Source: an uncultured Dysgonomonas sp. (GTDB taxonomy: Bacteria; Bacteroidota; Bacteroidia; Bacteroidales; Dysgonomonadaceae). From it: 64,000 bases of DNA. Where the stretch lies: contig NZ_LT599032.1 in NCBI RefSeq assembly GCF_900079725.1, forward strand, positions 3,902,054 through 3,966,053, in the 5' to 3' direction. The notes below the pieces were generated by a model. The model was not told the origin of the DNA. It saw nothing but the letters and a program-made list of their open reading frames with translations, and searched no databases. Below are positions 21,624 to 49,770 of the stretch, piece by piece. Made by a program: the position numbers and the translations under genes. Numbering within the stretch: position 1 is the stretch's first letter; each line of letters opens with the position of its first letter.

Positions 21624-23066
21624 TTAGTTATTAGTATATGTGACATCAAAGTCCCAGCTCCATTTATCAAAGTATAAGTTTCCTCCCTTCCATTCCAACT
21701 CGCCACGCTGAAAATCTACTGTTTCGCTTCGTGGGTAAATCTTTTCGGGAAACAGAGGTTGGGAATAATCGTTATTGACTATCCAGCGGTACGCGTCCAT
21801 CCCGTTAGAATATATGTACCTGACTTTTTCATCATCCGTAAACCTGTTGATGCCGAAAGACTGGTCCATCGGTATCCATCCCATACCTTCTATATAGAAT
21901 TCGCTCCAGTCGTGCAGGTTCAGTCCGTCCGGATGCATCATAAATCCGCTTTGCCAGCGTGCAGGAATGCCATTGTAGCGAGCCAGCGTTATGAATAACA
22001 ATGTTACCTGCCCGCAGTCGCCATGATTGTTTGCCAGTACGTAAGCCGGTATATTGTCTATTGTCGAATATTCCCGTGCGCCCGCCCAAGGGAAATTTTC
22101 ATCTATCCAGGTGAATATCTTTTTCACCTTCTGGTAAGGGTCTGTTTCATTGCCAATGATACGTTCCGATATGGCTTTGATAGAATCACTGAAAACGATA
22201 TGGGGAGCACGTTCGGAAGTATATGTCTTATACAGGTCGCTGTTCGTATCAAATGGTTTGACCTCTTTGCCCTCAAGATTGAACCATTCCGCCGCCGATT
22301 TATAAGAGAACTCTATCTCGAACTTCAACGGTTCATCTTTCTTTACGGTTTTCTCCATATATAATGTACGGTGTGCATATTTTGAAGGGGATATAATATA
22401 ATTATCGTCATTTACCGACAACAACTTTATTTCCGATTGTCTGCGCTCATCCTCTCTCGGGTACGGAAGCCAGCATCTTACAACTTCACCTTCGGGTACT
22501 GCATTCGGTTTCAGCGTCACTTCATATTTTACTCTCATTGCAACGAGGGGCATTTGGGTTTTTCCTGTTTTTCCCAATACAGATACTATTTCCGGCAGAT
22601 GTACTTTCAGGGTCTCTTCTTTTGCGTCTGTACTTGGCTTATCCACCTCCTTCTTCTTTGCGATAGCATTTTTATCCAGACGGAACAGGTTGCTCGCTCC
22701 ACGGCTGAAATATTTTTTTTGCCCATCGATGACCATATGTTCCAGTGAATTGTCAGCCTCCCATTTGGCTAACATATCATCGTTTACTTCAGGATAATAT
22801 TTTTGGATATATTCCATCACTTGTTCCTTATCTTTATTGAAGTCCAGAGCTATGCGATGCATTTTATCCTTTCTCCAGTTGAGGTCATAGATTGTATCGC
22901 CAGAAGGTTTATTCTCGGCAATATACAGGTCAATCAGATAGGACGCTTTCGTAAAGTTTCCGGCCTTTTCTTCCGTATCTATTTGCTCTAGACTCACAGA
23001 TTTGGGCTGTTGGGTATTGCATCCCCATATTGCCAGTGCGATTATTATAAAATATAAGTGTTTCAT
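21624..23066 (-). CDS. Transglutaminase-like lipoprotein
   Basis: 480 residues with lipobox AIWGC (Cys16). The transglutaminase-like core lies about residues 295-405 with a plausible catalytic triad: Cys351 in NHGDCGQVTLLF, His385 in NLHDWSEFY and Asp401 in IPMDQSFG. An upstream beta-sandwich (about 175-260) precedes it. In bacteria this fold is mostly a periplasmic cysteine peptidase or amidase rather than a cross-linker. It is the last gene of the leftward cluster of cell-wall peptide enzymes, though a 774-bp repeat-filled gap separates it from the epimerase gene, so common transcription is uncertain. A role on murein peptides is inference. Confidence 0.82.
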   Translation of the reverse strand: MKHLYFIIIALAIWGCNTQQPKSVSLEQIDTEEKAGNFTKASYLIDLYIAENKPSGDTIYDLNWRKDKMHRIALDFNKDKEQVMEYIQKYYPEVNDDMLAKWEADNSLEHMVIDGQKKYFSRGASNLFRLDKNAIAKKKEVDKPSTDAKEETLKVHLPEIVSVLGKTGKTQMPLVAMRVKYEVTLKPNAVPEGEVVRCWLPYPREDERRQSEIKLLSVNDDNYIISPSKYAHRTLYMEKTVKKDEPLKFEIEFSYKSAAEWFNLEGKEVKPFDTNSDLYKTYTSERAPHIVFSDSIKAISERIIGNETDPYQKVKKIFTWIDENFPWAGAREYSTIDNIPAYVLANNHGDCGQVTLLFITLARYNGIPARWQSGFMMHPDGLNLHDWSEFYIEGMGWIPMDQSFGINRFTDDEKVRYIYSNGMDAYRWIVNNDYSQPLFPEKIYPRSETVDFQRGELEWKGGNLYFDKWSWDFDVTYTNN

Positions 23067-23840
23067 AGGTATTGTTTTTTTTAAATTATTTATAGTAAAA
23101 ATAATGGTAATCAGCCCCCTAACCCCCGGAGGGGGAATGCTAACGCGTCAGCTAAGCCTCCACGAGGAGAGGTTGGATGGACTAAAAAGGTGACAAAGGT
23201 AACACCTTTTCAATGCTTTTTTACTTGCGTCCTTTGAGTAACTCTTTGTGTCCTTTGCGGTAAAATCCTTTTCGTTACACTGAGGACTTTGTTAAAACCT
23301 GACACATCTGACACTTTTATATTGTTTTTCATTGTTACTTTTTTACTAAAACTCCTGTTACTCTTTTTACTCTGTAGAGTTTATATCGAATAAGATTATA
23401 TGCATGTTGTTATCAGTGCTTTAATCGCCTCCACTTTTAAGTGGAGGAATAATAGTAACAATTGGTGAAGGGCTTTAGCCAAAAGATATTCGACTAAAGT
23501 CGTATTCATTTTCATCCTATATCCACGACTTAAAAGTCGTGGCAATTTAAAAAACTAAGAATTAGATATCTATACTTTTATTCGATATAAACTCTGTGTT
23601 TAAATAAAAAAGGTAACAAAAGTAACAGCTTTATTCTCTTTTGTAGGGGCGAATAAATATTCGCCCATTGTTAATTCGAAGGTATGTTAAAAAGTAACAA
23701 AGGTTACACTTTTTCATTCATTTGCTAATCAGTTTTTCAAAGAGCTATAAGCAAGCAGCTAAAGCTGGTAGCTTACTATATAGATAAATTTTTCTCAAAT
23801 AAATTATTTTCATTACTCATTACTTGAAACTTATTACTTA
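23067..23840. repeat. Gene-free 774-bp repeat cluster
   Basis: No gene seen. It holds three copies of the 17-mer AAGTAACAAAGGTAACA (23188-23204, 23611-23627, 23692-23708, with one or two changes), a ccccgg-centred G/C palindrome near 23120, the imperfect direct repeat gcgtcctttgagtaactctt / gtgtcctttgcggt near 23227, a 220-bp element with terminal inverted repeats (23376-23595), and a gggcgaata/tattcgccc hairpin (23647-23666). The 17-mer and the tgtaggggcg hairpin recur at 59.2-59.7 kb, so these are dispersed genomic repeats. Confidence 0.75.
23376..23595. repeat. 220-bp element with 18-bp terminal inverted repeats and internal palindromes
   Basis: Perfect 18-bp ends agagtttatatcgaataa (23376-23393) and ttattcgatataaactct (23578-23595). 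Inside are two strong palindromes, cctccactt/aagtggagg (23428-23447) and ccacgactt/aagtcgtgg (23523-23542), and two weaker ones, ggct..agcc (23471-23480) and cgact/agtcg (23491-23502). It has no coding capacity. The look is that of a MITE or a REP-type palindrome cassette mobilised in trans. Confidence 0.65.
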
Positions 23841-24986
23841 CTATTTCCCTATCCCTATTCCCGGCAAATCATTCAATATCAATTTCCCATCGACAACGGT
23901 CGTCCCTTTATAAATATCGTTACTTATCAACAAGTTTCCATCCAAGTCTGCCCAATCTACAGCAGGTGATAATTGAGATGCTGCTGAGATAGCGCAGGAA
24001 GTTTCCGTCATGCAACCTATCATTACCTGCATATTGGCTGCGCGGGCTACCGTCAGTATCTTCCATGCTTCTCGCATTCCCGTACATTTCATCAGTTTGA
24101 TATTTACACCCGTAAAAGCGCCTTTGAGCCGCAATACATCATTCAAACGTTGGAAAGATTCATCCGCAAAGACGGGTAGGGGACTCCTTTCTGTTACCCA
24201 GGCCGAATCGTCGAGGTTGTATTTCGGCATCGGCTGTTCTATCATTACTATCCCTTTTTCTTTCAGCCAGTATATCATATCCAGTGCATGATGTTTGTCT
24301 TTCCAGCCCTGATTGGCGTCTATGGCAATAGGCTTGTCGGTCACTGTACGGATAGCTTCTATCATCTCCTTGTCATTGTCGCGTCCCAGCTTTACTTTCA
24401 GAATATTGTAAAGCGGCGCGGCTTCCCTGGTCTTCTCTTTCACCACATCGGCGGTGTCTATGCCTATAGTGAAAGTTGTGGACGGTGCTTTCGACTTATC
24501 CAGCCCCCATATTTTATACCACGGTTGTCCCATGATCTTACCCACAAGATCATGCAGGGCTATATCCACAGATGCTTTTGCCGCCGTGTTGTTTTCCGCT
24601 ATTTTATCTACATAGGTGAGTATATCATCGAGCTCGAACGGACTGGAAAACTGGCTCAGGTCTATTTTTTTTAGGAAGTCCATAACAGATGCCTGCGTTT
24701 CTCCCAGATAGGGCGGGAGAGAGGCCTCCCCGTATCCGGTAATACCGTCATATTCGATCTCCGTCAATACAACAGGGGTTGTTGTACGCGAAAAATTAGC
24801 GATAGTAAATACATGTCTCAATTGCAGGTCGAAAGGTCTGAAGCTGAATTTCATTTTTCCTTTGCTGCCTGTAACCTTGTCTTTACCTTTCTGTGCGAAT
24901 ATGCTCAATGGGGAGCCGGCAGCCAGACCGGCACCAAGAGAGGCCAATGCTGTCTTTCTCAGAAAATCACGTCTTGATTGTGCCAT
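23841..24986 (-). CDS. ykfB: L-Ala-D/L-Glu-type dipeptide epimerase with Tat-like signal
   Basis: 381 residues. The N-terminus has a twin-arginine motif (SRRDFLRK, residues 4-11), a hydrophobic stretch and a cleavage site near Phe30-Ala31-Gln32. The rest is the enolase-superfamily muconate-lactonizing group: N-terminal cap (about 45-145) and barrel with KVK (Lys197/Lys199), Asp223 in AIDANQ, Glu250 in MIEQPM, Asp275 in FADESF and Lys297 in VNIKLMK, which are the two base lysines and three metal ligands of dipeptide epimerases. Epimerises the Glu of L-Ala-D-Glu from murein peptides. It is next to a YkfC-type endopeptidase, as in murein-peptide operons of other bacteria. Other dipeptide specificities within the family remain possible. 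Confidence 0.88.
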   Translation of the reverse strand: MAQSRRDFLRKTALASLGAGLAAGSPLSIFAQKGKDKVTGSKGKMKFSFRPFDLQLRHVFTIANFSRTTTPVVLTEIEYDGITGYGEASLPPYLGETQASVMDFLKKIDLSQFSSPFELDDILTYVDKIAENNTAAKASVDIALHDLVGKIMGQPWYKIWGLDKSKAPSTTFTIGIDTADVVKEKTREAAPLYNILKVKLGRDNDKEMIEAIRTVTDKPIAIDANQGWKDKHHALDMIYWLKEKGIVMIEQPMPKYNLDDSAWVTERSPLPVFADESFQRLNDVLRLKGAFTGVNIKLMKCTGMREAWKILTVARAANMQVMIGCMTETSCAISAASQLSPAVDWADLDGNLLISNDIYKGTTVVDGKLILNDLPGIGIGK

Positions 24987-25024
24987 ATATTATTAAATTA
25001 AAAGTGAAAAACGAAAAATAAAAA

Positions 25025-25118
25025 ATAATTAGCAGGTTCGGATATTAGCATATTAGCAAATGATATTGCCGCTTGCGCTCCATTTGCTGATTTTCAAATA
25101 TGCTAATTCGCTAATTAT
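25025..25118. repeat. Inverted repeat between ykfB and ykfC
   Basis: ataattagc at 25025-25033 pairs with gctaattat at 25110-25118, and further imperfect pairing (attagcatattagcaaat against atttgctg...aaatatgctaat) extends inward around gccgcttgcgctcc. The right arm overlaps the stop codon of the NlpC/P60 gene. It may act as a processing or attenuation hairpin between the two genes. Confidence 0.5.
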
Positions 25119-26320
25119 CTCTGCTCCTTATATAACGGACTATTATTTATACTCCAGATTCCTTTAGTATCCACAGCACCGATAACTCGCGACGCCCGTA
25201 CAAACTCGCGGGTATTTAGTTCGTCATAATTTGCTTTGGTCGAATCCAGACTGTTTATCCTTATATATCCCGAAGCGTGGATAAACTCTTTATCACCTTT
25301 GTAAAAGGCAACATGGCGTATCCGTTCTTTTTTTCCCTCCTGCGCTTTTTTTCCGAAGAACATCAGGTCACCCGGACGCAGGTTTTCGTAACCATTGCTT
25401 ATATCCACAGGAATGCCGGTCTTTACCTGCTGGGAAGCATCCCGCATAAGAATAATTCCATGCATCAGCATCACTGTTTTGGTAAATCCGCTGCAATCCA
25501 TGCCTTTGACGGATGTTCCGCCCCACGTATATGGGATGCCTTTAAGTGAAAGAGCCTTTTCCAAAATACTTTCTTCGGTTAGTTTTACAGACGTCAACCA
25601 TTCTTCGTAAGGTTTGCTCTGGCTTTTCAATACATAAGCGATACGGCCGTCAGGATAAGATACCTTATAGAAGCGTCCGTTGTCGGCTTCCAGTTTCAGC
25701 ATATTGCCGAATGCAAGGTCGGATACCCTTTGCTTCTTTTCATCAGGGTTTTCATATCCGAAGCCGTAATCACCTGTGAAAATGATTTTCTTTGCAGTTA
25801 TCCATTTGTTGAAATCATCTTTTGTCATCCTTACAAATGAACCGCCGGTCGTCCATGCCACATAGCCTTCCGCGCTCTTTATCCGCCACCAGTCGTCGTG
25901 TTGCAAAACCTGTACAGGCGCACCCAGTAATAACTGGGTTCCCATTTCAGCGGCATAACTTGCACCCATGCGTGCATCTGCTACCGAAACGTTAATCACT
26001 CCATATGTTTTTTCTCCGACCGTTTCATCAGGTAATACACTGATGCTGTCTATTGCCGCCGGATTACTTTTCCGGATCTGTTCCAGCAAATCGACTTTAG
26101 CTTCGTTCAAAGAAGTCACCCCTTTTATGACAGGCTTACCTTCATTCTCCACCACTTTGATATCATATACATTGTCCCGCCTATCCGGTACATATTTCAT
26201 TCTGACACTGTCTACGAGAGCATTAAGCTCAGGATAAGGTGTCTTTTCTTCTTTATTCTGACAGGCAGATAAGAAAATTAATGTTGCTGTAACTAGTTTT
26301 GTTATATTGTTGATTCTCAT
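25115..26320 (-). CDS. ykfC: YkfC-like NlpC/P60 murein-peptide endopeptidase lipoprotein
   Basis: 401 residues with lipobox FLSAC (Cys20). An N-terminal helical part is followed by two SH3b-like domains (about 105-165 and 180-235) and an NlpC/P60 domain (about 248-385) with Cys276 in MDCSGF, His336 in RHVAFY and His348 in FIHASG as the catalytic set. This architecture matches structurally known Bacteroides YkfC-like enzymes that cut gamma-D-Glu-diamino acid bonds in peptides with a free N-terminal L-Ala. The product L-Ala-D-Glu is the substrate of the epimerase encoded next. Predicted periplasmic face of a membrane. Confidence 0.92.
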   Translation of the reverse strand: MRINNITKLVTATLIFLSACQNKEEKTPYPELNALVDSVRMKYVPDRRDNVYDIKVVENEGKPVIKGVTSLNEAKVDLLEQIRKSNPAAIDSISVLPDETVGEKTYGVINVSVADARMGASYAAEMGTQLLLGAPVQVLQHDDWWRIKSAEGYVAWTTGGSFVRMTKDDFNKWITAKKIIFTGDYGFGYENPDEKKQRVSDLAFGNMLKLEADNGRFYKVSYPDGRIAYVLKSQSKPYEEWLTSVKLTEESILEKALSLKGIPYTWGGTSVKGMDCSGFTKTVMLMHGIILMRDASQQVKTGIPVDISNGYENLRPGDLMFFGKKAQEGKKERIRHVAFYKGDKEFIHASGYIRINSLDSTKANYDELNTREFVRASRVIGAVDTKGIWSINNSPLYKEQR

Positions 26321-26366
26321 ATTAGTTATTATTAAATAAAAGCGTTTATTGATATATTTTGGCTGT

Positions 26367-26519
26367 GGGAGGCTGTCTCAAAAGTATTTTTCACTTTCTC
26401 TTTGTCATGTTGAACGGAGTGAAACATCTCGTTTCTCAGAGTCGAGATCCTTCGTTTCTCTCAGGATGACAAAGAGAGTAACACTTTGATCGTGTAGTTT
26501 TACTTTTGAAACACCCTCC
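26367..26519. mobile_element. MITE-like inverted-repeat element 1
   Basis: Outer imperfect ends gggaggctgtctcaaaagta (26367-26386) and tacttttgaaacaccctcc (26501-26519) match at 17 of 19 positions; an inner perfect pair tctctttgtcat (26397-26408) / atgacaaagaga (26466-26477) encloses gaacggagtgaaacatctcg. The 153-bp unit has no ORF and sits between the amidase and ykfC genes. Related central sequence recurs in elements 2 and 3. The gaggctgtctcaaaa end resembles ends of IS elements, from memory. Confidence 0.65.
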
Positions 26520-26559
26520 TATAAAACAAATGCGACAATAAATATTATTCATTACTAAA

Positions 26560-29500
26560 TCATTTCTTATTAAACATAAAATTCAGAATGTTTTTCATCA
26601 GTTGGTCACGCAAAGGTGTTTCCCTGATTGTCTCGAAAGGGAAACCCAATACGCAGGTCTTATAATTATCATCAGAAGCTATCCCCGCGCTCAGGTTATT
26701 TTCGCTATACCTGAAAACAGTAAAGCTGTTTGCATCCGCAGGCTCTATGGCGTCGGGTGATTCTACCGCGTAACAATCCGAATTCAGTTCATTGTAGAAA
26801 CTGTATGTTCCTGTGAGTTGTGTGAAAGGTGAAGCCACGCTTTTTACGTTACCTGTTACTGCTGCCTGCCCTGTCCGCCACTTATATTTCAATACCTTTT
26901 GCACGAATTCTTTATCTTCATTCTTTACAAATTCATTGTCCCAAAGGTCTGTACCCACATAGGCACCACTGATAAATATGTTTCCTCCCTTGTTGCAATA
27001 ATCTGTTATTTTCGACTGTAATCCGTCAGGGAAAGTTTTAAACCGTGGGGGAAATGCACCCCGCCCGATTTTTGTTTGTTTCTGCTTCCCTAATATAAGA
27101 TCTGTCAGTTTATAATTGTTCATATCGGCCAGACCGTTCATTACGGCTTCCGTATTAGCAGACACGAAAGAGTAGCCTGCATTTACGATGGATGTGCCGT
27201 GTACAAACGGATAATCGAATGTGTTGCCTGCGATTACAGTCGTTTCATAATTGGAATTGCTAGCCCCGAATCCGGCTGCGTCGTCGTCCATCCACGGTAT
27301 CTTACGGCGAAACTCATACTGGCTTCCTATAAGGTTATACTGGCTCTTATCGGGTACTCCGTGGTCTTTATAGCTTAAGAATCCGGCAATGCTGTCGCTG
27401 CTGGCAAAGCTGTCGGGTGCAGATATACGTTGAAACCCGTTGACAATAAAAACCGTTCCTTTCTCATTCGATTTCCTGCAAACGGATAATATTTCGGACG
27501 GAAAACTTTCACCGCCTTCGTTTACCGCCGTTACTTTAAAACTATATATCTTATCTTTCTCTATATCAATGGTCGTCTGATTCCCCTTTACTAAGACACC
27601 ATTATCGAAATCGTTGTTATCCGTACGGGTATAAACGATATAACTATTTGGTGTCGCGGTCGGTTCTGACGGGTCGTTTACCGGCAGCCATTGCAGTTTC
27701 ACCTGAGTATCTCCTGAAAATTCGGTGCTGAATGATTTTATCGGCAACGGCGTCACTACATAATCGAAGTTGTACTGATAAGCGATGAATTTAAGTATGC
27801 CCTTATAAATAGCTCTGCTCGCCGTAAATTGGAAAGCCGGGTCGAGTCCGTAGCGCATATCGGCAAAATTCTGATGGGAGAGCAACTCCAGCAACATAGT
27901 CGGCACCTCCGGCATGCGCGCTTCGCTGTAATTGCGGTTCCATATATGGCGGCGTGTCCAGTTCGGCTCATATTCGGTGCGTATGTCTTTCACTATTTCG
28001 TCCATGATGAGGGAAGTAAGGTCACGGGAAGCGATTCGCGGAATGCCGTTCGCGAATATCTCATCGTTTATATGCGTCATGCAGATGGTCAGCGTGCCTA
28101 TAATAGAATCATTGTAGGTTGTGCCCGCATCGCTATGGAAAGCCATTGCCATATCCAGAGGGATATTCAATCCTTTCCCCTTCGGGATAACAGGAGATCC
28201 TCCCGCCATATAATTTACCCATAAGCCACGGCTCTGATAATCGTCTGTATAATCGCTTTTTCCTTTCGTCCATCTGTACACACTGTCGGGAACACCCGCC
28301 CATTGCAGCCAGTAACGCGCACCTTCCGTGTAGCGGGGGTGATTGCTGGTTTCCAGTTCGTACTTTATCGGCGGAAATTTAGAAACAGTCGTATCATCCG
28401 GTTGTTTCAGGTTTTCGGGATCGGTGGTACGTGCGATATTTCCCATACCTCCCCCTATTTTTATAGCATCGGCAGTAATTATCTGCCCGCTTTTCGCACT
28501 TTTGTTGGATAAGGTGATCTTACAATTCTCATTTTTACCTTTGTCGAAGGAAAAGAATCCGAGAAATATCCATGTACCGCCCCCCATAGTTTGATTGATG
28601 CTGAACTCCGTTTTTCCTCCGGAGTGATACACGGTATAGCGGGCATCTTCGCTGCTGTTTTTCAGGCTGGCATAAGATATATACACTCCGTATTTTCCTT
28701 TTTCCGGAATGTCGGGCAACCATTCGCAAACGCTTTCATTGCCTTTACTTATGGTTTTCACCTGCCGGTATGTACCATCCCGGAATGGATTTTCCAAGTC
28801 CAGATAAACTTCTTTCAGCTGGGCGAATCCGGCGCTATCCCCCTTTGTCCATGCTTCTTTTCCTGCTGTTTCTTTGTAAACAGAATTGTTGAGAGATTTA
28901 TCGTTATCTACAATTATTTCATGTTTTTGTGTATCCCGTTCGCGTGGCAGGAAAACATTTGCTCCCGCGTTCTCGAGCATAGGAACAAGGTATGGCAAAA
29001 CATAACCTTGTGTGAACAAATCCTCTACAGTCTGAAAGACCCGTGCACGCTGCCATTCCCAGCGGGATAGCTTTTGCTCGTAGTACCAGCCGTGACTTTG
29101 CCACATGGCGATATGGCGGTTCTGAAGGCCTTTGCTGCTCTTTACAGGATGAGACAGGCGTGTTATTAACGGCTTATCAACTTTGTTGGTAAATTTTTCT
29201 TTCCTGACGAGCGGAATATAGTCTTCTATTTTGTACTTGTCGGAAAAAAGTTCGACCTGATAATTTTTCATATTATCCGGCAGATATTCCTTCACTCCCG
29301 CATATATGTTGTCTACCAGTTGCCTGTCGAATCCCCCAAAGGATAGATTAACATTGGCAAACAACTGAATCTTCTTTTTCTGTATATCAACAGAGTCAAT
29401 CGTTACAGGGCGTATACGCGTTTGCTGATTAATGGTCTTGGTGAGGTATTCACCGATCTTATCAGTCGCATCTTTTGTTATTTCCTGCGCCCTTATCCCG

Positions 29501-29565
29501 GTGGATGTAAGAGACAGGATAAAGGAGAAAAATATAAATAAGAACGTTATCTTACGGCTTCCCAT
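26560..29565 (-). CDS. N-acetylmuramoyl-L-alanine amidase with inserted golvesin-type domain and FN3
   Basis: 1001 residues, signal peptide about 1-26. The Amidase_3-type zinc site is spread over the chain: WQSHGWYY (His158), TVEDLF (Glu181), AMAFHSDAG (His477) and PTMLLELLSHQNF (Glu560). Between Glu181 and His477 a beta-sandwich of about 120 residues (roughly 255-375, GKYGVYISYASLKNSSEDA, TVYHSGGKTEFSINQ) matches the golvesin C-terminal-like or xanthan-lyase-associated domain. An FN3 domain follows (about 615-705) and a C-terminal domain of unknown type (705-1001). Such proteins are sometimes misnamed xanthan lyases. It would remove stem peptides from MurNAc, supplying peptide to YkfC and sugar to NamZ/MurT. 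It is 22 bp from the metallophosphoesterase gene. Confidence 0.82.
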   Translation of the reverse strand: MGSRKITFLFIFFSFILSLTSTGIRAQEITKDATDKIGEYLTKTINQQTRIRPVTIDSVDIQKKKIQLFANVNLSFGGFDRQLVDNIYAGVKEYLPDNMKNYQVELFSDKYKIEDYIPLVRKEKFTNKVDKPLITRLSHPVKSSKGLQNRHIAMWQSHGWYYEQKLSRWEWQRARVFQTVEDLFTQGYVLPYLVPMLENAGANVFLPRERDTQKHEIIVDNDKSLNNSVYKETAGKEAWTKGDSAGFAQLKEVYLDLENPFRDGTYRQVKTISKGNESVCEWLPDIPEKGKYGVYISYASLKNSSEDARYTVYHSGGKTEFSINQTMGGGTWIFLGFFSFDKGKNENCKITLSNKSAKSGQIITADAIKIGGGMGNIARTTDPENLKQPDDTTVSKFPPIKYELETSNHPRYTEGARYWLQWAGVPDSVYRWTKGKSDYTDDYQSRGLWVNYMAGGSPVIPKGKGLNIPLDMAMAFHSDAGTTYNDSIIGTLTICMTHINDEIFANGIPRIASRDLTSLIMDEIVKDIRTEYEPNWTRRHIWNRNYSEARMPEVPTMLLELLSHQNFADMRYGLDPAFQFTASRAIYKGILKFIAYQYNFDYVVTPLPIKSFSTEFSGDTQVKLQWLPVNDPSEPTATPNSYIVYTRTDNNDFDNGVLVKGNQTTIDIEKDKIYSFKVTAVNEGGESFPSEILSVCRKSNEKGTVFIVNGFQRISAPDSFASSDSIAGFLSYKDHGVPDKSQYNLIGSQYEFRRKIPWMDDDAAGFGASNSNYETTVIAGNTFDYPFVHGTSIVNAGYSFVSANTEAVMNGLADMNNYKLTDLILGKQKQTKIGRGAFPPRFKTFPDGLQSKITDYCNKGGNIFISGAYVGTDLWDNEFVKNEDKEFVQKVLKYKWRTGQAAVTGNVKSVASPFTQLTGTYSFYNELNSDCYAVESPDAIEPADANSFTVFRYSENNLSAGIASDDNYKTCVLGFPFETIRETPLRDQLMKNILNFMFNKK

Positions 29566-29587
29566 AATTTTGAGTTTTATATATTAT

Positions 29588-32659: not shown

Positions 32660-32683
32660 TATGTCAGACTTATTTTAGTTATA

Positions 32684-33720: not shown

Positions 33721-33769
33721 AATTAAGAATTAAGAATTAAGAATTAAGAATTAAGAATTAAGAATTAAA
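33721..33769. repeat. Seven-fold tandem 7-bp repeat aattaag
   Basis: The unit aattaag occurs seven times (last copy one base short of matching) between murQ and murK. The right end overlaps the murK stop codon (33758-33760) and encodes its final Asn-Ser. Such a short tandem tract can change length by slippage, altering the murK-murQ spacing. Confidence 0.85.
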
Positions 33770-42300: not shown

Positions 42301-42576
42301 CCGTACTGTTATGGCATATTTGCCTGATCCATCAGTCATTGTACCAGTGATTGTTCCCCTTATAGTGACGCTTACGCCAGCCAGGGGTTCTCCATTTCTA
42401 TCTACAACAGTTCCTGTTATAGTTTTTACCGTTTGTTGCAAATCTGTAGGATCTTCTGATTTTCCCGTGTTTGCCTGCACATCTATACTCCCTGCGGTAG
42501 ATAATACTAACCCTGCAAAGAGGATACACAAAAGTTTCTGTATAAAACTTTTTCTGGCTTGTTTTAATGCGGTCAT
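39340..42576 (-). CDS. SusC-like TonB-dependent transporter, peptidoglycan locus pair 1
   Basis: 1078 residues: a long signal region (MTALKQARKSFIQKLLCILF, cleavage near VQA at about 35), carboxypeptidase-like domain (ITGTVVDRNGEPLAGVSVTIRG), TonB box MDEVVVTAMGIKKERKALGY, plug with GPAASALYGSRAAAGVIVITTK, and a barrel ending in MSFGINLTF. The first 50 residues are nearly identical to those of the second SusC at 45202-48543, and the 350 bp upstream are homologous too, pointing to a duplication of the 5' end or gene conversion. Paired with the SusD downstream. Confidence 0.95.
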   Translation of the reverse strand: MTALKQARKSFIQKLLCILFAGLVLSTAGSIDVQANTGKSEDPTDLQQTVKTITGTVVDRNGEPLAGVSVTIRGTITGTMTDGSGKYAITVRDNNQVLNFSYIGFKPLSVAAKNSVIDITMEEDAQMMDEVVVTAMGIKKERKALGYSVQDINADELMKNKSTNILNSLSGKIAGLNVTQSSGAAGAGASIIIRGGTSLERDNQPLFVVDGMIYDNSTDAGGNSAFDGATRVNSTNSNRIMDINPEDIENVSVLKGPAASALYGSRAAAGVIVITTKKGQEGQVKVNVNSKFSTSWVNRYPEQQDRYKRGYYNQSGTLDDYTMNSWGAAFKEGEQVYNNMEDFFQNGSTWDNNVSISGGSKNSNYFLSASRYDQTGIIPETGFEKTTFRFNGEQKYGILTTGANVAYSVGSADKALTSTGLTGSGGTGAISSVYRWARSDDMKHWLNEDGSRYRMFEGLQLPAADVDNPYWIINRNPITEKTTRFTGTINAKLNIAEWFNIAYIAGTDRYTTNTKRIIGANGGVDLIYQKGMLSENDRTYEYLSSNFMMNFTKKFGDFDLNLLLGQSVEDTKVKTNRYRAWNFVTENFYNINNTANEDRRIAQGNSRKRLIGAYGEFRAGYKNMLYATVTGRNDWTSTLPIDNRSYFYPSVSGSFLFTEVMPKNDILSYGKIRASWAEVGKDADPYVTNTYIDPPFPTVGGTGIQDAWTHGNDILVPEKTRSTEIGLELGFLNGRLGFDMAYYSNKSINQLLSPRTSQTTGYIFMTTNAGDITNKGFEISIKAEPIKTRDFSWNTMLNLARNKGKVNNLLPGIDVLYVTDVQVGSAKAASFNGGNFMGISGSKYNRDEAGNMILDWESGMPTSDGKEIYDIGNREPKLTGGFTNTFRYKDFELSFLLDFRIGGDIYNGTDYFMTGIGMSKRSMDRESLTLSGVAKNPDTQQLESKTYTFQANKFYLKGQEVSSGTAKAESGYQIIQKYWDTYYNYESANYMTNTNWLRLRSLSLSYYMPSKLLNKTKFIKGMSINVTGTNLLLFTNYKGMDPETSAAGSGAVGSSSVGIDYNGVPATAGMSFGINLTF

Positions 42577-42900
42577 AGTAACATAGGTTTAATTTTAAAA
42601 AATAATTGAAAGCGCTTACTTAATAAGTTTGACTAAATAGTGTTTTTTATAGCAGAATTGCCTATAAAACAAGGTTCGTGATGTCAATATTATGCGTCGT
42701 TGCGGTATATCCGCTAATAGAATTATTAATATTTAGATACTTAAATTAGAATAAATTCACATTTAAGAATAAAGAGGATTTTTACTTCATTGCTAATTGC
42801 CTTATCAATAGAAGTAATTTAGAACTAAGTACTTTCTTTGTTTTTATGTTACAATTACTATAGGATATTGCACTAACAAATATAAATTAATATATTTAAA
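42577..42900 (-). promoter_or_regulatory. Upstream regulatory/leader region of susC-1
   Basis: This region aligns along its length with 48544-48860 upstream of the other susC. Shared items on the minus strand, from far to near the ATG: TATATTTG (42877-42884, a TAnnTTTG -7 box), a TTTAAGTATCTAAATATTAA block, the palindrome gcggtatatccgc (42702-42714, one mismatch), and the 26-nt ACGAACCT motif (42661-42686), 85 bp before the ATG. If TATATTTG is the promoter, the transcript has a leader of about 290 nt. The rest of the gap (42901-43165) shows nothing recognisable. Confidence 0.6.
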
Positions 42901-43165
42901 TAAAATGCGTATTGTATAAAAAGAATTCAAGAATTAACTATTATTAAATGTCTTATACAAAAATTAGGTTATTTGCTGTAGGTTTGATGAGTTCTTAAAT
43001 TATAGCTGAGAGATTGTCTTTCTGGATAAAATCCGTCGGGTATTGTGTTGCGGATAGTTTTTGTTTTCTTCTAAGATTTAGGGTGATAGGTTGCCAGGCG
43101 ATATGTATGGTTGTTCATTCTGTATGTTCTCGTAATAGGTTGTTGGTAGATATTTCATTAAATAG

Positions 43166-43213: not shown

Positions 43214-45088
43214 TTACCAGCCCGGATTCTGGGTTAAAGTATATCCTTTATCTTTATAGATTGTTATTTGAGCCGCCGGTATGGAGCGCAAATAATTTCT
43301 TTCTGACTTTATGTCTCCTTTTACAAAAGATCTTAATGGTGAAGTAATGCTGAAATAACTTATGTATCCCTTGGTCGGGGTTGCTGTCGGATTTTCAGGA
43401 TCGAACAGTTTTACGGCTGTGGCTATTCCCGGATAATCCGCTTTGTCTATCCACGCACCAAGTACTGTTTTGTTAGGATTGTTAGAAGTACCAGTGTTCA
43501 GATATTCAAATTTTGCCCATCTGTTGAGATCATCGCTGCGTCTGCCTTCCATTATGAGCTCGGTGCGGCGCTCTCTTCGTATTTCCCATAATACAGGATC
43601 TACAGAAGGATCACGGTCGGGGTCGTTTATAACGATGTTGTTAACGGCTATGTTGTTCCCGCTAAGAGTGACATTCGGCATTTTTCTGCTTACGGCAGGG
43701 GTTTCTCCCCATTTGGTTAAGTTTCTTTTTCTTATTTCATTGATGGATTTGTCCAGATCTGCCTGACTGAATGCTTCTCCGCCTATTTTGCTTATTTCGT
43801 ATCGTGCTTCAACGTAGTTGAGGAGTACTTCGGCGTAGCGTATTATGGGTGCATCTGCCGGGCTGAGGATTCCTGTAACATACGGAGATCCTCCCAGAAG
43901 CCAATCTTCGTTAAGGAATTTCTTAGAAGCGAATCCTGTTGGAGAGGCGGCGCTGAACAAACCGGAGTTTAAGATGCGGAGAGTGTCTACGAATGTATCA
44001 TATATCCTAGGGTCACGATCTTTGAAAGAGTTTTTGATGCTAGGATCTGATTGTCCCTGATAGGACGGGGACTGTCCTATCGGAAGGCCGTCAAGACATA
44101 GATAACTGTCGATAGCATCGATGGTTGCCCCTCCTAATTTTTGGTCTTCTTTAGCATTATAGGCCATTAGTGCGTTACAGGCTATGCCTGTGGTGTATTC
44201 CCTGTAGAATATTATTTCAGGGTTGTCGGCCAGACTTTCGCTTGTAAATAGTGCGTTGTATGTATTACCTATCGAATAACTGTGTGATTCTATAACACTC
44301 TCTGCTCCATCAATAGCTCCTTTAAAGAATTTTGAAAGCTCGGTGTTGCTTACTGGCTGGGATGTCGGGCCAACGGTTGTACCATGATATTTCAGCCATG
44401 TAGCATGGTAAAGCATATTACGCGACATGAATGCTCCCACAACGGATTTGTTGACCTGGCGTACTCCGTCATTTGCTCTGATGTATTGCAAGGCATAGTT
44501 GTAGTCTTCCAATATCTTATTTACAACTGTAACTTGAGGGTCGCGGTCTTTATACAGGGTGTCGTAATCCTTGGCATCTACGACAGCCAGTTCTATATAT
44601 GGTACATCTCCGTATGTCTTAACCAGGGTGCTGTAGGCTGTTGCTCTAAAGAAACGGGCAATAGCCATCCAGTGATTTTTAGCTTCGTCGGAAATGGTCA
44701 TACCCGGAATTTTTTCGAGCATGACATTGGCTTTGCGAACAATCTTGTATTGATCTGTCCACAAGGCAGTGACACTATTGATTCCGGTTGTATTCGTAGT
44801 AGGGAAAAATAAGCGTTGATTTGTGTCACTCACATTGTCACTAGTGAGAAGGAAGTCATCGTTGTATGAGTCTCCTGAAAAATAGCCGCCAAAAGCCCTG
44901 TAATCTTGAGCATATCCAACAAAATAGGTTGAATAGAAATCTTGGGAATAGGCTCTTAAGCTTACTTCGTCTACCCAGTACGAGTCGTTTGCCAGCTTGT
45001 CCAAAGGAGCTTTGTCTAGGAAATCATCACAGCCGGAGTTGGTTGCGAGAGCTAATAAACATCCTATATATAATAAATATTTTTTCAT
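43214..45088 (-). CDS. SusD/RagB lipoprotein, peptidoglycan locus pair 2
   Basis: 624 residues with lipobox ATNSGCD (Cys20). SusD features: DFLDKAPLDKLANDSYW, HWMAIARFFRATAYSTLVKTYGDVPYIE, PIIRYAEVLLNYVEARYEI and RRERRTELIMEGRRSDDLNRWAKFE. This is the classical SusD (RagB) type, unlike the type-2 SusD of pair 1, so the two pairs probably bring in different ligands. Starts 113 bp after susC-2. Ligand unknown; murein glycan or peptide is proposed from context. Confidence 0.94.
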   Translation of the reverse strand: MKKYLLYIGCLLALATNSGCDDFLDKAPLDKLANDSYWVDEVSLRAYSQDFYSTYFVGYAQDYRAFGGYFSGDSYNDDFLLTSDNVSDTNQRLFFPTTNTTGINSVTALWTDQYKIVRKANVMLEKIPGMTISDEAKNHWMAIARFFRATAYSTLVKTYGDVPYIELAVVDAKDYDTLYKDRDPQVTVVNKILEDYNYALQYIRANDGVRQVNKSVVGAFMSRNMLYHATWLKYHGTTVGPTSQPVSNTELSKFFKGAIDGAESVIESHSYSIGNTYNALFTSESLADNPEIIFYREYTTGIACNALMAYNAKEDQKLGGATIDAIDSYLCLDGLPIGQSPSYQGQSDPSIKNSFKDRDPRIYDTFVDTLRILNSGLFSAASPTGFASKKFLNEDWLLGGSPYVTGILSPADAPIIRYAEVLLNYVEARYEISKIGGEAFSQADLDKSINEIRKRNLTKWGETPAVSRKMPNVTLSGNNIAVNNIVINDPDRDPSVDPVLWEIRRERRTELIMEGRRSDDLNRWAKFEYLNTGTSNNPNKTVLGAWIDKADYPGIATAVKLFDPENPTATPTKGYISYFSITSPLRSFVKGDIKSERNYLRSIPAAQITIYKDKGYTLTQNPGW

Positions 45089-45201: not shown

Positions 45202-48200
45202 TTATAATGTAAGTTGTAATCCGAAAGAAAGGGTTCTCTGATAAGGGTAGCTACGGCCGAAATTTCGGGAGTCGGCTGCTGTTCCTACATAGCGGACATC
45301 TATCTCGGGATCGATATCCGGTTTTACATTATCAAATTCGAATAGGTTTTCTGCCGTAAAGTAAACTCTGAGGTTGTTTATGTAAGCTTTCTTCGTTAGA
45401 GCCCGAGGGAGTGTATAACCTACAGTCAGGGTTTTGCATCGCAAGTAAGCCATATTGAGTAGGTATCTGTCGTTTACCTGATAGTTGCCGGAGGCTACCT
45501 GGGAATAGTTCATCGGACGAGGGTAGAACGCATTCGTGTTTTCGGGACTCCAGTAATCTTCTGCTCCTTTATAATAAGGTTCACCAGCAGTATAGCCCGG
45601 TAATACCTGATTGCCCATTGCCCACAGTTTACGCCTTCCAACACCCTGGAAAAACATGCTGAAATCAAATCCTTTGTAATCAGCTCCTATGCTAAATCCG
45701 TATTCGAAGCGAGGCATCGCGTTTCCTATTACAGACATGTCTTTGGCGTCATCCACTCTTACGCCTTTTCTGATGTATCCGTCGCCATCCAGATCCTTAT
45801 ATAATACATCGCCCGGGGCAAATTTGTAATTTGCCGGAAATACTTCGGCCTGATTTGGTATGCCTGTTACGAGATTCCCGTTTGAGTCAAAATCACTTTC
45901 CTGAAGCAATCTGTCTACCTGTAATCCCCATATATCTCCCAGGATCATACCTTCTCTGTAGACTGCTACATCTGTAGACCATCCATTTCCGTTACCTCCA
46001 TAAGTTGGTATGGTTGAGTTGTTCGACCATTTTTTTACTTTGGTCTTGTAGTCTGTAATCTGTCCGCCTAGTGTAATTGTCAGGCCGCTGGAGAATTTGT
46101 GATGGAAATCGGCGGATAATTCCCAGCCCGGGGTTTCGAGTTCTCCCATATTCTGATATGGGCTTGTTGCGCCTAATGTAGCAGGAAGAGCTTGGGAAGC
46201 AAGGACATCACTGGTTGTTCTCTTATACCAATCGAATGTGATGCCTAGTTTGTCGTCTATGAATCTGGAATCGAAGCCTATATCCACGGTTTTCACCTTC
46301 TCCCATGTCAGGGATTTGGATACAACTGTAGGTGCACTTACTGATGTTTGTCTTACGCCATTTATTACCCAGCTATCCAATTGTCCATCGAGTGTAGATA
46401 TGAATCGGTTCAATCCTACATCCTGATTGCCGATAGTACCATATGATGCTCTTATTTTTAGAGATGAAAGTGCCGGGTAGAGTTTCTTCATAAAATCTTC
46501 TTCCGATATCCTGTATCCGGCAGAAACCGAAGGGAAAAATGCGAACCTGTCATCTCTCGGGAATCTTGACGATCCGTCATAGCGTCCATTTACCTCTAAA
46601 AGGTAACGGTCTTTGAAGGAGTAGTTGATTCGACCGAAGAAACCTGCAACAGCCCAATGTGTGTGTTCGGAGCTGGTGGTTGCGTCTCCTACGGCAAGGT
46701 TGAGTTCAGGCTTGGAGGCGCTTAATAAACCTTTCTTCTGTGCCCAGATGTACCGGTATTGGCTTTGTTCGATATTAGATCCGGCTATTACTTTGAAGTC
46801 ATGATCTTTTATTTTCTTGGAATAGGTTGCTACAATGTTGTTTGTGAGGGTCTGAGTACGTCCTCTTTCTTCGTACACATAGTCATAGCTTGAAGAGATG
46901 TAGTTACCGTACGAATTCATTAATTTCTCCAGGGAATTATGTGCTGTGAAGATATCGTATGCATATACTTTATCTCCAAATTTCTTGTAACGTGATTCGA
47001 TGGTGGTGTATACAAAATCAAAATCAACAGTTAGTCCATCCATTGGCTTTAGTGTCAATCCAGCACCCAGGCGCATATAGTCTTTCTTACGCCGGGTCAT
47101 CGGGGCTTGTTGCAGCTCGGTTAAGGCGCTTCGGAATGGCTTTCCGTCCAATGTGCCGTATGGGTACATCGGTTGCCATCTGTACAGGTAGTACATGTGA
47201 TCATATAAATCCGAGGCGTACATAAACGGTTTGTCTAGATCGGTTTTTGTATACATCGCATTTGCCCTGACAGTCATATATTTGCTAAGCTCAGTATTTA
47301 GTGTGATGTTTGTATTGTATCTGTCATACATATCCGGATTCACTTTGGTGAGTCCTTCCTGATGGATATATCCCAGCGTTAATCCATAACTTGTTCTTCC
47401 ATTGCCTCCACTTATAGAGAGGTTGTGAGATTGTTGTGGCATCCAGTCTTTGATGTACATGTCGTACCAATCCCATGTTCTGTAATAATGTGCTCCGGCG
47501 GCATCTATTTCAAAGTCGCGGCCGTAAACCATCTCCAATCCCAGTCCTTTACCATCGCCGTATTGTTCTGCCCAGGCTTTCATTCCGTCTACTGTTTTCT
47601 GGTCTACTATCATATTGGCGACCACATTGTATGAATTTGCAGGAGAAGGAGCTACCTTCATGCCGGCCAGATTGATTTCGGCTTGCTGCCAACCCGGTAG
47701 TTGTTCAGGTTTCTTGGTAGGCGTTCTCCAGGCAAAGTTGTTGGAGTAGCTTATTGATAGTTTATCGTTTTGCTGTTTTGCCTTTGTGGTGATGAGTATA
47801 ACGCCAAACGCGGCTCTGGCTCCATATATGGACGATGATGCTGCGTCTTTCAATACTGAAATGGATTCGATATCATCAGGGTTTATCAGAGTTATGTCTG
47901 AAATCTCTACATTGTCTACCAGGATCAGTGGATTGGCGCTTCCGTTAGGAGAGCCTACACCTCCTCTTATCTTAATTGTAGGGGCACCTCCGATTTCGCC
48001 TGATTTTGTAGATACAGTCAAGCCCGGTACGGCTCCTTGTAATGCCCGGCCTATATCTGCAATCGGGCGGCTTTCTACGGTTTTGCCTAAATCAACGGAT
48101 GCTACAGCTCCAGTCAGGTTCTCTTTTTTCTGAACTCCGTATCCGACAACGACGATTTCGCTCATTATCTGAGAATCCTCTTCCATGATTACATCGATAT

Positions 48201-48543
48201 TGGTTTGGTCGGCAAGGATAGATACAGGTTTGAATCCTACATACGAGAAGCTAAGTGTGTGGTTGGCTGCTGCGTTGATCGAATATTTCCCATCGATATC
48301 TGTTATTGTGCCGGTGGTTGTGCCTTTGATGGCGACGCTTACTCCTATTAAGGGGGCTCCGGTGTGGTCCTTAACTGATCCTTTTACGGTTCTGGTGGCT
48401 TGCTGTAAGTCTGATGGTTCATTTGATTTATCAGGGCTTGCTTGCACATTTATACTCCCCGCGGTGGATAGTATTAATCCTGCAAAGAGGATACACAAAA
48501 GTTTTTTTATAAAACTTTTTTCTGCTTGTTTTAATGCGGTCAT
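45202..48543 (-). CDS. SusC-like TonB-dependent transporter, peptidoglycan locus pair 2
   Basis: 1113 residues: N-terminus MTALKQAEKSFIKKLLCILF almost the same as SusC-1, regulatory-like domain (VKGSVKDHTGAPLIGVSVAIKG), TonB box SEIVVVGYGVQKKENLTGAV, plug DAASSSIYGARAAFGVILITTK, and a barrel ending in SFGLQLTL. Beyond the first 120 residues it diverges strongly from SusC-1, which suggests that only the signal and leader have been homogenised. First gene of a susC-susD operon with its own leader region and terminator. Confidence 0.95.
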   Translation of the reverse strand: MTALKQAEKSFIKKLLCILFAGLILSTAGSINVQASPDKSNEPSDLQQATRTVKGSVKDHTGAPLIGVSVAIKGTTTGTITDIDGKYSINAAANHTLSFSYVGFKPVSILADQTNIDVIMEEDSQIMSEIVVVGYGVQKKENLTGAVASVDLGKTVESRPIADIGRALQGAVPGLTVSTKSGEIGGAPTIKIRGGVGSPNGSANPLILVDNVEISDITLINPDDIESISVLKDAASSSIYGARAAFGVILITTKAKQQNDKLSISYSNNFAWRTPTKKPEQLPGWQQAEINLAGMKVAPSPANSYNVVANMIVDQKTVDGMKAWAEQYGDGKGLGLEMVYGRDFEIDAAGAHYYRTWDWYDMYIKDWMPQQSHNLSISGGNGRTSYGLTLGYIHQEGLTKVNPDMYDRYNTNITLNTELSKYMTVRANAMYTKTDLDKPFMYASDLYDHMYYLYRWQPMYPYGTLDGKPFRSALTELQQAPMTRRKKDYMRLGAGLTLKPMDGLTVDFDFVYTTIESRYKKFGDKVYAYDIFTAHNSLEKLMNSYGNYISSSYDYVYEERGRTQTLTNNIVATYSKKIKDHDFKVIAGSNIEQSQYRYIWAQKKGLLSASKPELNLAVGDATTSSEHTHWAVAGFFGRINYSFKDRYLLEVNGRYDGSSRFPRDDRFAFFPSVSAGYRISEEDFMKKLYPALSSLKIRASYGTIGNQDVGLNRFISTLDGQLDSWVINGVRQTSVSAPTVVSKSLTWEKVKTVDIGFDSRFIDDKLGITFDWYKRTTSDVLASQALPATLGATSPYQNMGELETPGWELSADFHHKFSSGLTITLGGQITDYKTKVKKWSNNSTIPTYGGNGNGWSTDVAVYREGMILGDIWGLQVDRLLQESDFDSNGNLVTGIPNQAEVFPANYKFAPGDVLYKDLDGDGYIRKGVRVDDAKDMSVIGNAMPRFEYGFSIGADYKGFDFSMFFQGVGRRKLWAMGNQVLPGYTAGEPYYKGAEDYWSPENTNAFYPRPMNYSQVASGNYQVNDRYLLNMAYLRCKTLTVGYTLPRALTKKAYINNLRVYFTAENLFEFDNVKPDIDPEIDVRYVGTAADSRNFGRSYPYQRTLSFGLQLTL

Positions 48544-48860
48544 AGTAACATAGGTTTAATTTAAGTAATAATTGAAAGAGAATTACTGGACTATAATGAT
48601 CTAAATAGTGTTTTTATAGCATAATTGCTTATAAAACAAGGTTCGTGATATCGAATCAATATATTATTGCGGTATACCGCAGAAGGATTATTAATATTTA
48701 GATACTTAAATTAATATAAATTCACATATGTAAATAAGGAGAATTTACTTCAGTGATCTATGATCTTGTTTATGAAGTAACTGAGCACTAATACTTTCTT
48801 TACTTTTATCTCAACACTACTAATAATATTATGCTAACAAATATAAATTAATATATTTGA
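48544..48860 (-). promoter_or_regulatory. Upstream regulatory/leader region of susC-2
   Basis: Homologous to 42577-42900. On the minus strand: TATATTTG (48838-48845, exact TAnnTTTG), the conserved AAGTATCTAAATATTAAT block, a perfect 12-bp palindrome gcggtataccgc (48669-48680), and the 26-nt ACGAACCT motif (48628-48653) 85 bp before the ATG, at the same distance as in the other copy. The palindrome is a candidate operator or RNA hairpin. No regulator gene lies next to either pair. Confidence 0.6.
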
Positions 48861-48924
48861 ATAAATTAAAGGAAGGTGGAAAAGTTGCTTTTGTTTAACT
48901 TTTATTAATCGTTATATACATAAA

Positions 48925-49770
48925 TTAGTATTTTAGGCTATTCCGGTGATATTGGATTAATCCTTCGACAGGATTCTCTGTAATGCTGTCGATAACTATA
49001 CCCAAATCGGTTGAGACCTGCTTCAGCATACTTGAGTATTTTTTTGCAACAGATCCGCAGAAACGTACCGGATAATTCGGACAATCATACTGTAAAACAT
49101 TTCTTTCGAAGAAAATTTTAAAACTGTTATAAACTAAATCGTAGACATAGGGATGGCCGAGGTTTTCGGAAAGGTAGAAAGAAAGGACAGCCAAAAGCCT
49201 GTTAGGGAAAGGTTTGCTGTAGACATAATCCAATATTTGCTCCGGATCTATCCCGTATTTTTTGTAGAAGGGCGTAACTAGTTCGTCCGGCGCCAATCCC
49301 TTTAGGCAATCTGAAAGAAATGTTTTTCCGAGAAAGGCCCCGCTGCCTTCATCTCCGAGTATGAAGCCCAGTGGACGGACGTTTTTAGTAATCTCTTCTC
49401 CGTCATAGAAGCAGGAGTTTGAACCCGTTCCCAGGATACAGGCTATTCCGGCTTGATCATTAAACAGAGAACGTGCAGCACCTAATAAATCGCTTTCGAC
49501 AAATGCAGGAGTGCGGAACTGGGATTCGAGTGATGCCTTCACCACACTCTTTTTCTCGGCAGATGAGCATCCGGCACCATAAAAGTATATGGATTGGATT
49601 TTTGTTTTGAAAAATATTTCGGGTAACTGTAACCTGATAGTGTGGCTGATTTCTTTTCTCGATTCGAAATAAGGGTTTATCCCGTCAGTGAAGGAGTGTT
49701 CGGAAACAGTCGTTTTACTAACTAAACACCATTCGGTTTTAGTGGATCCGCTTTCAGCTAAAAGTATCAT
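48925..49770 (-). CDS. Second MurK/GlcNAc-kinase-like protein (BadF family)
   Basis: 281 residues, cytoplasmic. Clearly paralogous to the MurK at 33758-34621: shared MILLA..GSTK..WCL, IYFYGAGC, GIACI.GTGSNSCFYDGE, GDEGSGA.LG and PNRLLA.LS. Position 1-10 reads MILLAESGST instead of MILLADGGST, so the first-phosphate motif Asp is replaced by Glu, which may change activity or nucleotide handling. It is followed by the leader of susC-2. It may be the GlcNAc kinase partner of MurK for the disaccharide products of murein, or a MurNAc kinase of different specificity. Its own promoter was not identified in the 296-bp upstream gap. Confidence 0.85.
   Translation of the reverse strand: MILLAESGSTKTEWCLVSKTTVSEHSFTDGINPYFESRKEISHTIRLQLPEIFFKTKIQSIYFYGAGCSSAEKKSVVKASLESQFRTPAFVESDLLGAARSLFNDQAGIACILGTGSNSCFYDGEEITKNVRPLGFILGDEGSGAFLGKTFLSDCLKGLAPDELVTPFYKKYGIDPEQILDYVYSKPFPNRLLAVLSFYLSENLGHPYVYDLVYNSFKIFFERNVLQYDCPNYPVRFCGSVAKKYSSMLKQVSTDLGIVIDSITENPVEGLIQYHRNSLKY

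Follow-up and report, generated by a model that had tools for sequence, protein, structure and literature searches.

The stretch of DNA analysed here, referred to as the window, comprises 64,000 nucleotides (3902054-3966053) of the 5.22-Mb single contig of the genome of Dysgonomonas, a gut-type bacterium. Positions 21624-49770 of the window are occupied by 15 open reading frames (ORFs), all on the minus strand, that together resemble an island for the use of murein, the peptidoglycan of the bacterial cell wall. A previous reading, made from the sequence alone, had described a peptidoglycan-scavenging locus of about fourteen same-strand genes at these coordinates; the strand is right and the coordinates correspond exactly to ORF limits, but the count is 15, the gene at 29588-31459 having been missed. 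In order of transcription, the genes and the two leader regions are the following.

48925..49770, minus strand: MurK2, second sugar kinase, nearest to K1058 of Tannerella forsythia (PDB 8oqk and 8ow7, 356 and 355 bits)
48544..48865, minus strand: leader copy 2, in front of susC2, with 79% identity to leader copy 1, containing TATATTTG
45202..48543, minus strand: SusC2, TonB-dependent transporter (TIGR04056, 880 bits)
43214..45088, minus strand: SusD2 lipoprotein (PF07980, PF14322)
42577..42904, minus strand: leader copy 1, upstream of susC1, recognized by DNA comparison with leader copy 2
39340..42576, minus strand: SusC1 (TIGR04056, 677 bits)
37470..39293, minus strand: SusD1 lipoprotein (PF12771, PF12741)
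36165..37331, minus strand: NamZ, exo-beta-N-acetylmuramidase (NamZ_N 254 bits, NamZ_C 110 bits)
34658..36121, minus strand: MurT-like sodium:solute symporter (SSF; PF00474)
33758..34621, minus strand: MurK, N-acetylmuramic acid (MurNAc) 6-kinase (PDB 8oqw, 328 bits)
32895..33716, minus strand: MurQ, MurNAc-6-phosphate etherase (TIGR00274, 315 bits against a cut-off of 302)
31460..32659, minus strand: AmiE-like hydrolase of the beta-lactamase family with a signal-like N-terminal stretch (PF00144, 210 bits)
29588..31459, minus strand: PPQQ, calcineurin-like phosphoesterase fused to a BamB-like propeller (PF00149, PF13360/13570)
26560..29565, minus strand: AMI3, divergent Amidase_3 with golvesin insert and fn3 (sub-cut-off Amidase_3 match)
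25115..26320, minus strand: YkfC-type SH3-NlpC/P60 protein with lipobox (PF00877, PF18348; PDB 3npf, 294 bits)
23841..24986, minus strand: YkfB-type L-Ala-D/L-Glu epimerase with twin-arginine translocation (Tat) signal (PDB 3iji, 592 bits)
21624..23066, minus strand: transglutaminase-like lipoprotein (PF01841)

Family scans bear out most of the protein kinds that the sequence-only reading had named: the two SusC/SusD pairs (both SusC proteins above the TIGR04056 cut-off), NamZ, the SSF symporter, MurQ, the NlpC/P60 protein, the kind of epimerase and the transglutaminase-like lipoprotein; its MurK and second MurK-like kinase match the solved T. forsythia MurK and K1058. The block contains what defines a polysaccharide utilization locus (PUL), namely tandem susC-susD pairs, two in this case, together with a glycan-active enzyme, NamZ.

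The MurNAc route is represented first by NamZ, presumably a member of CAZy family GH171, which is 97% identical to the NamZ of Dysgonomonas sp. UBA7710. The genes murT, murK and murQ are adjacent and stand in the same order as Tanf_08375-08385 of T. forsythia; the MurT-like label derives from PF00474 and this gene order, not from a direct comparison with T. forsythia MurT. The top solved match of MurK is the uncharacterised 1zxo (360 bits), followed by T. forsythia MurK. In the latter enzyme S133, P134 and L135 are key for MurNAc specificity, and the sugar contacts include D95, N119 and D141 (PMC10465942). All six residues are kept in the MurK of the window, which differs at positions 94, 96 and 137 (S, L and Y versus T, M and F in T. 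forsythia) and has a loop at 69 that is longer by one residue. MurK2 scores 356 bits to K1058, itself a MurNAc kinase, versus 249 bits to MurK, and its pocket has D94 and R-P-L at 132-134 versus R-A-G in K1058. Both MurA and NagB were found in the genome. An auxotrophy of the T. forsythia type was rejected since this genome has MurA, which T. forsythia lacks, and the locus would therefore serve nutrition or salvage. A third NamZ gene (L137, G000:C1:2750600-2770500), 48-49% identical to that of the window, stands without the island partners searched for.

The AmiE-like label holds as far as the beta-lactamase family, since it is based on Pfam PF00144; the best NCBIfam match is PBP4B, at 208 bits below the cut-off of 385. 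This gene adjoins the NlpC/P60-epimerase pair in locus L167 and MurT in locus L168. The amidase of the earlier description, AMI3, matches Amidase_3 with 19.2 bits (Pfam cut-off 27) in its C-terminal half, which the golvesin domain precedes. Matches at E<=1 are present in 24 of 24 aligned relatives (best 8.7e-5), all of them below the cut-off. When the AMI3 core was compared with Amidase_3 domain stretches of the same genome, 49 columns of the C-terminal half were aligned (E 1.4e-4, probability 53%) and the N-terminal half was left unaligned, and a PDB profile search with the AMI3 alignment returned golvesin- and fn3-type parts only. The fold model has a mean predicted local distance difference test score (pLDDT) of 59.5, falls below 50 over residues 121-212 and 371-599, and leaves the core without a model. 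Taken together, AMI3 is likely an amidase. PPQQ, a frequent neighbour of AMI3, has an AlphaFold model with a pLDDT of 84.7 in which the propeller matches BamB; the phosphoesterase half has only remote relatives among solved structures, Rv0805 being one, and its substrate may be a phosphodiester-linked wall polymer.

The PDB match of the NlpC/P60 protein, 3npf, is annotated as a putative dipeptidyl-peptidase VI. The epimerase belongs to the enolase superfamily and to the dipeptide-epimerase kind, below the NCBIfam epimerase equivalog cut-offs; besides 3iji, which we take to be BT_1313 of Bacteroides thetaiotaomicron, it matches the solved dipeptide epimerases 3jva (144 bits) and 1jpd (138 bits). 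Its twin-arginine motif is present in 18 of 18 relatives of at least 60% identity with a readable N-terminus (one cut-off row was dropped, and L058 and L155, which share their N-terminus, are probably one genome), and TatC is encoded in the genome. The lipobox of the NlpC/P60 protein is found in the window copy and in 3 of 18 rows, some of them incomplete, and the N-terminus of the others resembles a plain signal peptide; both calls come from sequence motifs or simple patterns. The Tat signal of the epimerase suggests that the processing of stem peptides takes place outside the cytoplasm; conversion of L-Ala-D-Glu would then precede uptake. The transglutaminase-like gene adjoins the NlpC/P60-epimerase pair in L048 and L096.

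The two SusCD pairs differ in lineage and are joined by their upstream regions. SusD1 is of the PF12771 type (SusD-like_2) and SusD2 of the PF07980 type (SusD_RagB), and SusC1 and SusC2 are 27.6% identical overall, with 64 of 99 positions identical in the first 100 residues. The DNA leaders of susC1 and susC2 are 79% identical over approximately 330 bp and share an identical 18-mer with TATATTTG, presumably a -7-like form as in Bacteroides. A whole-genome search with the leader returned these two copies, otherwise one 24-bp match and no third copy. This pattern points to susC genes with a fixed 5′ end whose downstream parts are exchanged. Both copies are found in the sister genome G154, in which one also precedes a replaced SusC, and genome G164 carries one (69%, E 3.5e-26) whose end lies immediately ahead of amiE-nlpC-epi. 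With a profile of the five copies, the only additions are a partial match before MurT-AmiE in L168 (E 0.0019) and, without significance, matches before NamZ in G155 and G157 (E 0.6-1). Since one leader stands before both susC genes, the two pairs are probably co-regulated in this species group, in a single regulon that includes some or all of the enzymes. A conserved RNA structure of the leader is unsupported by the five sequences (covariation term +1.08, double change in 6 of 41 pairs). Generic scans of 21000-40900 were at chance for promoters (53 versus 54.5 expected) and for terminators (16 versus 15.9 expected), the TTTG-N-TAnnTTTG pattern occurs 5 times in the window versus 3.6 expected, and an Rfam scan at the gathering threshold gave two tRNAs and nothing else.

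For SusD1, the best match outside the own genome among 149 genomes of the order has 92 bits and 31% identity and is uninformative. The SusD2 search in 295 Bacteroidales genomes gave 13 places outside the own genome with 34-41% identity; for three of them (L189, L191, L193), the same contig has an AMI3 match at a distance of 8-18 kb. Nearer relatives of SusC2, with 59-82% identity, occur in L029, L030, L043, L065, L086 and L105, and SusC1-type relatives in L049, L070, L073, L096 and L105 (52-54%) and in L092 (94%); the nearness of these SusC relatives to NamZ is a matter of selection, because they were found through NamZ.

The association of these genes was followed across the Bacteroidales from two seeds. 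With NamZ as seed, 77 named loci, each with flanks of 10 kb at most, were collected by means of exact peptide words, a procedure biased to near relatives. MurT is present in 54 of them, AMI3 in 41 and PPQQ in 33, and the genes flanking the locus of the window, NDH2 (upstream, at 50067) and altronate dehydratase (on the other side, at 19992), which were used as controls, in none of the 77. The usual block, a composite from several genomes, runs MurK2 - SusC - SusD - NamZ - MurT - AMI3 - PPQQ - GT2 - DUF4922 - SpoIID - AmpG-like - NamZ2 - c17 - MurK - MurQ. Among the 45 NamZ loci with AMI3 or PPQQ, SusC is found in 38, SusD in 31, both in 30, MurT in 40 and a MurK-type kinase in 26; in the 35 such loci whose flanks both reach 8 kb the figures are 33 for SusC and 25 for SusC with SusD. 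SusCD is absent from the nine NamZ-MurT-WYL loci, only three of which have at least 8 kb on both sides, and present in 5 of the 6 remaining MurT loci without AMI3, PPQQ or WYL. Loci with neither MurT nor AMI3/PPQQ have SusCD in 2 of 17 cases, and the 7 of them flanked by 8 kb or more on each side have none. In 15 of the 77, NamZ is immediately preceded by SusD in the same orientation. These counts are not independent, as the groups differ in their taxonomic make-up and related species were each counted.

AMI3 was used as a second seed in order to avoid selection on NamZ, and it has a match in 35 of 295 Bacteroidales genomes, own genome included. Flanks of 1.5 kb, available for 29 of the 34 other genomes, contain another island gene in 21 cases (MurK, MurQ, MurT or NamZ in 11; GT2, c17 or PPQQ only in 10) and none in 8. 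In 19 wider regions taken from the 34 genomes, a MurNAc gene is present in 10, the AmpG-like gene in 12, GT2 in 12, SpoIID in 13 and SusC in 5. Accidental clustering was rejected on the recurrence counts from the two seeds. Some single copies are peculiar: in L073 (20037-21155) a SpoIID domain within the conserved recycling block is fused to a DUF559 endonuclease-like domain, and matches are split between frames, by real breaks or sequencing errors, in L044 (12143-17131; AMI3 and PPQQ) and in L062 (SusC, MurT and PPQQ).

Among 25 Dysgonomonas genomes, own included, type-1 NamZ is found in 13 (identity 73% or more), the epimerase in 16 (77% or more) and the two together in 12. In 10 of these 12 the two genes lie on one contig with starts 2.6-29 kb apart, and in the other two, G162 and G164, each gene has a short contig of its own; G157 has NamZ without the epimerase, and G151, G153, G161 and G019 the epimerase without type-1 NamZ. 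Most of the mapped regions of the genus show a two-part island, the first part being NLPC-EPI-MurK2 / AMI3 / SusCD / PPQQ and the second NamZ-(MurT)-GT2-DUF4922-SpoIID-AmpG-NamZ2-c17-MurK-MurQ. In the genome of the window this second part is divided: the locus described here, at about 3.93 Mb, has MurT-MurK-MurQ, and GT2-DUF4922-SpoIID-AmpG-NamZ2 with a further MurK2-like gene (62%) are at about 416-425 kb of the contig (L136), the AmpG-like gene near 421 kb. Genome G154 has the gene order of the window with SusC2D2 replaced by another pair and a GHL10 gene; a remnant of SusD2 covers 20% of its length with 86% identity. We infer that the form of the window was assembled from older modules. On these comparisons, the locus is one version of an island spread more widely in the Bacteroidales, the parts of which recur in other orders around NamZ and around AMI3.

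In 20 sister proteins scanned near SusCD, five are GHL10 proteins (L138, L142, L148, L101, L159; none in the locus of the window), one is an Amidase_3 protein, seven are of the GH9, deacetylase, ROK, SIS, creatininase or MFS kind, one is a SusD and one a purple acid phosphatase, three are unrelated (L032, L041, L066) and two without family (L031, L036). Cluster c15, with 7 loci, is represented by a more distant GHL10 match. The Amidase_3 protein, of 1294 residues with a type IX secretion tail, stands before NamZ in L071. DigH of E. coli, which we take to belong to GHL10, offers a point of comparison. This enzyme hydrolyses denuded murein glycan specifically (PMC12288456). A remote version of the gene plan is seen in L175 (G000:C1:2237500-2256500), where SusCD-like, AmiE-like (25%) and symporter-like (24%) genes lie close together.

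Several known systems share parts of this set. In T. forsythia, MurT-MurK-MurQ and AmpG are in a nine-gene unit regulated by GppX, Tanf_08345-08385 (PMC5790795, PMC7670621). The MurT-MurK-MurQ order, the MurK family and its specificity residues are common to both; AmpG is within the T. forsythia cluster and likewise in the sister Dysgonomonas islands, whereas the genome of the window has its AmpG part elsewhere. The main texts on that operon make no mention of SusC (PMC5790795, PMC7670621), and the comparison covers four of its nine genes. The T. forsythia operon is part of a wider Bacteroidales set to which SusCD and the peptide enzymes are additions. As in YkfB-YkfC of Bacillus subtilis and B. 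cereus, an NlpC/P60 endopeptidase stands beside an Ala-Glu epimerase, an association of ykfB and ykfC already noted in B. thetaiotaomicron (PMC2954226). However, the two Bacillus YkfB epimerases have no predicted signal peptides (PMC2954226), unlike the Tat-bearing epimerase and the lipobox-bearing YkfC type of the window. Another arrangement, the murQ-murP-amiE-nagZ-namZ cluster of B. subtilis, likewise brings together NamZ, an AmiE-family hydrolase and MurQ; its transporter is of the phosphotransferase system, in contrast to the symporter, kinase and SusCD of the window. With the PULs of Bacteroidetes the locus shares tandem SusC/SusD, enzymes and an inner-membrane transporter, the target here being murein. 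In a PUL survey, the peptidoglycan families GH23/24/25/73 are strongly under-represented in PULs, yet present in several (PMC6499787). A described murein PUL was found in none of the titles and abstracts among the matches listed, in a search that left out most subscription papers. In sum, the component families are known, but SusCD-type uptake loci devoted to cell wall material have hardly been described.

Taken alone, the enzymes of the locus are very probably best read as a pathway of murein catabolism. For the whole, we give a probability of about two in three to a murein-utilization island in which the SusCD pairs import wall fragments, this import being likely in itself. AMI3 and the AmiE-like hydrolase would strip stem peptides, and SusC1D1 and SusC2D2 would take wall fragments across the outer membrane. 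In the periplasm, NamZ would remove MurNAc from non-reducing ends; MurT would import it, and MurK, together with the K1058-type MurK2, would phosphorylate it. MurQ would then produce GlcNAc-6-P (N-acetylglucosamine 6-phosphate) and lactate, the route being finished by enzymes encoded elsewhere, such as NagB. As for the peptide, the NlpC/P60 lipoprotein would trim it to L-Ala-D-Glu, from which the Tat-exported epimerase would make L-Ala-L-Glu. The murein-utilization locus for glycan and stem peptide of the earlier reading is hence well supported by enzyme families, kinase residues, recurrence and the shared leader; it is amended in that the locus is one form of a wider island, that import by the SusCD pairs is rated as no more than likely, and that the peptide is apparently not processed as by Bacillus YkfB.

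Several observations weigh against this interpretation. Family scans of the locus gave no endo-muramidase, N-acetylglucosaminidase or regulator; in particular, the 15 proteins contain no match to a hybrid two-component system (HTCS), a sigma/anti-sigma factor or AraC, which are common in PULs, if not universal. The amidase assignment of AMI3 is below the curated cut-off, with its N-terminal half not modelled, and 6 of the 19 wider AMI3 regions are without an island partner (one of them has a 23% AmiE-like match). Only 4 of the 13 SusD2 relatives, none of them among the three near an AMI3 match, adjoin NamZ, MurT or PPQQ within 1.5-kb flanks, and the SusD2 family is therefore not murein-specific at 34-41% identity. 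To these are added the isolated enzyme genes of G151, the limited spread of the leader and the GH9 genes of two sister loci, which are discussed below with the alternatives that they favour.

A finer form of the murein-utilization reading, in which one SusCD pair would take the glycan and the other the stem peptide, is doubtful. The two lineages of the pairs agree with it, as do the enzymes for glycan and peptide alike in the island and the joint presence near NamZ, in L049, L070 and L105, of SusC1-type (52-54%) and SusC2-like (39-60%) genes; nevertheless, most loci have a single SusCD pair, and G154 manages with another one in place of SusC2D2. It is unlikely that the enzymes merely recover the own wall turnover from the periplasm, as in T. 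forsythia, and that the SusCD pairs are only nearby with other cargo. Such recycling has a precedent in MurTKQ and AmpG, described as a single operon in T. forsythia (PMC5790795, PMC7670621), and G151 has NDH2 followed by MurK-MurQ-NLPC-EPI with neither SusCD nor NamZ there; moreover, the SusCD sequences near NamZ vary greatly from locus to locus, and the leader gave no strong match in the other sister islands examined. On the other hand, the leader of the susC genes also precedes amiE-nlpC-epi in G164, SusC accompanies AMI3/PPQQ in 38 of 45 loci versus none of nine WYL loci, and the AmpG-bearing part is elsewhere in this genome. Finally, an import of another amino-sugar polymer (chitin, a poly-N-acetylglucosamine-like or a deacetylated glycan) that shares the GlcNAc-6-P route with the murein enzymes is improbable: GH9 with CelD_N, deacetylase, ROK, SIS, creatininase and MFS genes in L163 (9829-16043) and a fused GH9-polysaccharide deacetylase in L145 (10494-12977), both between SusD and AMI3, could indicate a chitin- or glucosamine (GlcN)-type cargo, but the locus of the window has none of them, the set could equally remove deacetylated GlcN from murein as serve another glycan, and other sister loci have GHL10 genes beside SusCD.

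The murein-utilization locus is bordered by a pectin-type PUL at 476-19096 of the window, with GH28, GH88, SusCD, HTCS, DUF4861 and a gene of the mannitol-dehydrogenase family; the HTCS, at 11839, was assigned to this PUL.

Beyond the locus itself, a Bacteroidales-wide and as yet unnamed class of murein loci can be proposed tentatively. It would combine SusCD import of foreign fragments with a nearly complete disassembly outside the cytoplasm by amidases, NamZ, NlpC/P60, the exported epimerase and PPQQ, the last perhaps clearing away wall polymers attached through phosphate, for instance teichoic acid stubs, and it would have, in some species, exchangeable SusCD cassettes behind one conserved leader. 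Guts, termites and biofilms are rich in cell wall polymer. If the island of the window imports murein, the under-representation of GH23/24/25/73 in PULs would partly reflect the families that were counted, with NamZ, GHL10 and amidases in their place. The locus provides wall fragments with a candidate path through the outer membrane, a step about which the passages on T. forsythia say nothing (PMC5790795, PMC7670621). A strong periplasmic amidase activity has been suspected in T. forsythia (PMC7670621), and AMI3 is a protein family to check for it. For gut bacteria, the locus could be a way to remove immune-active muropeptides.

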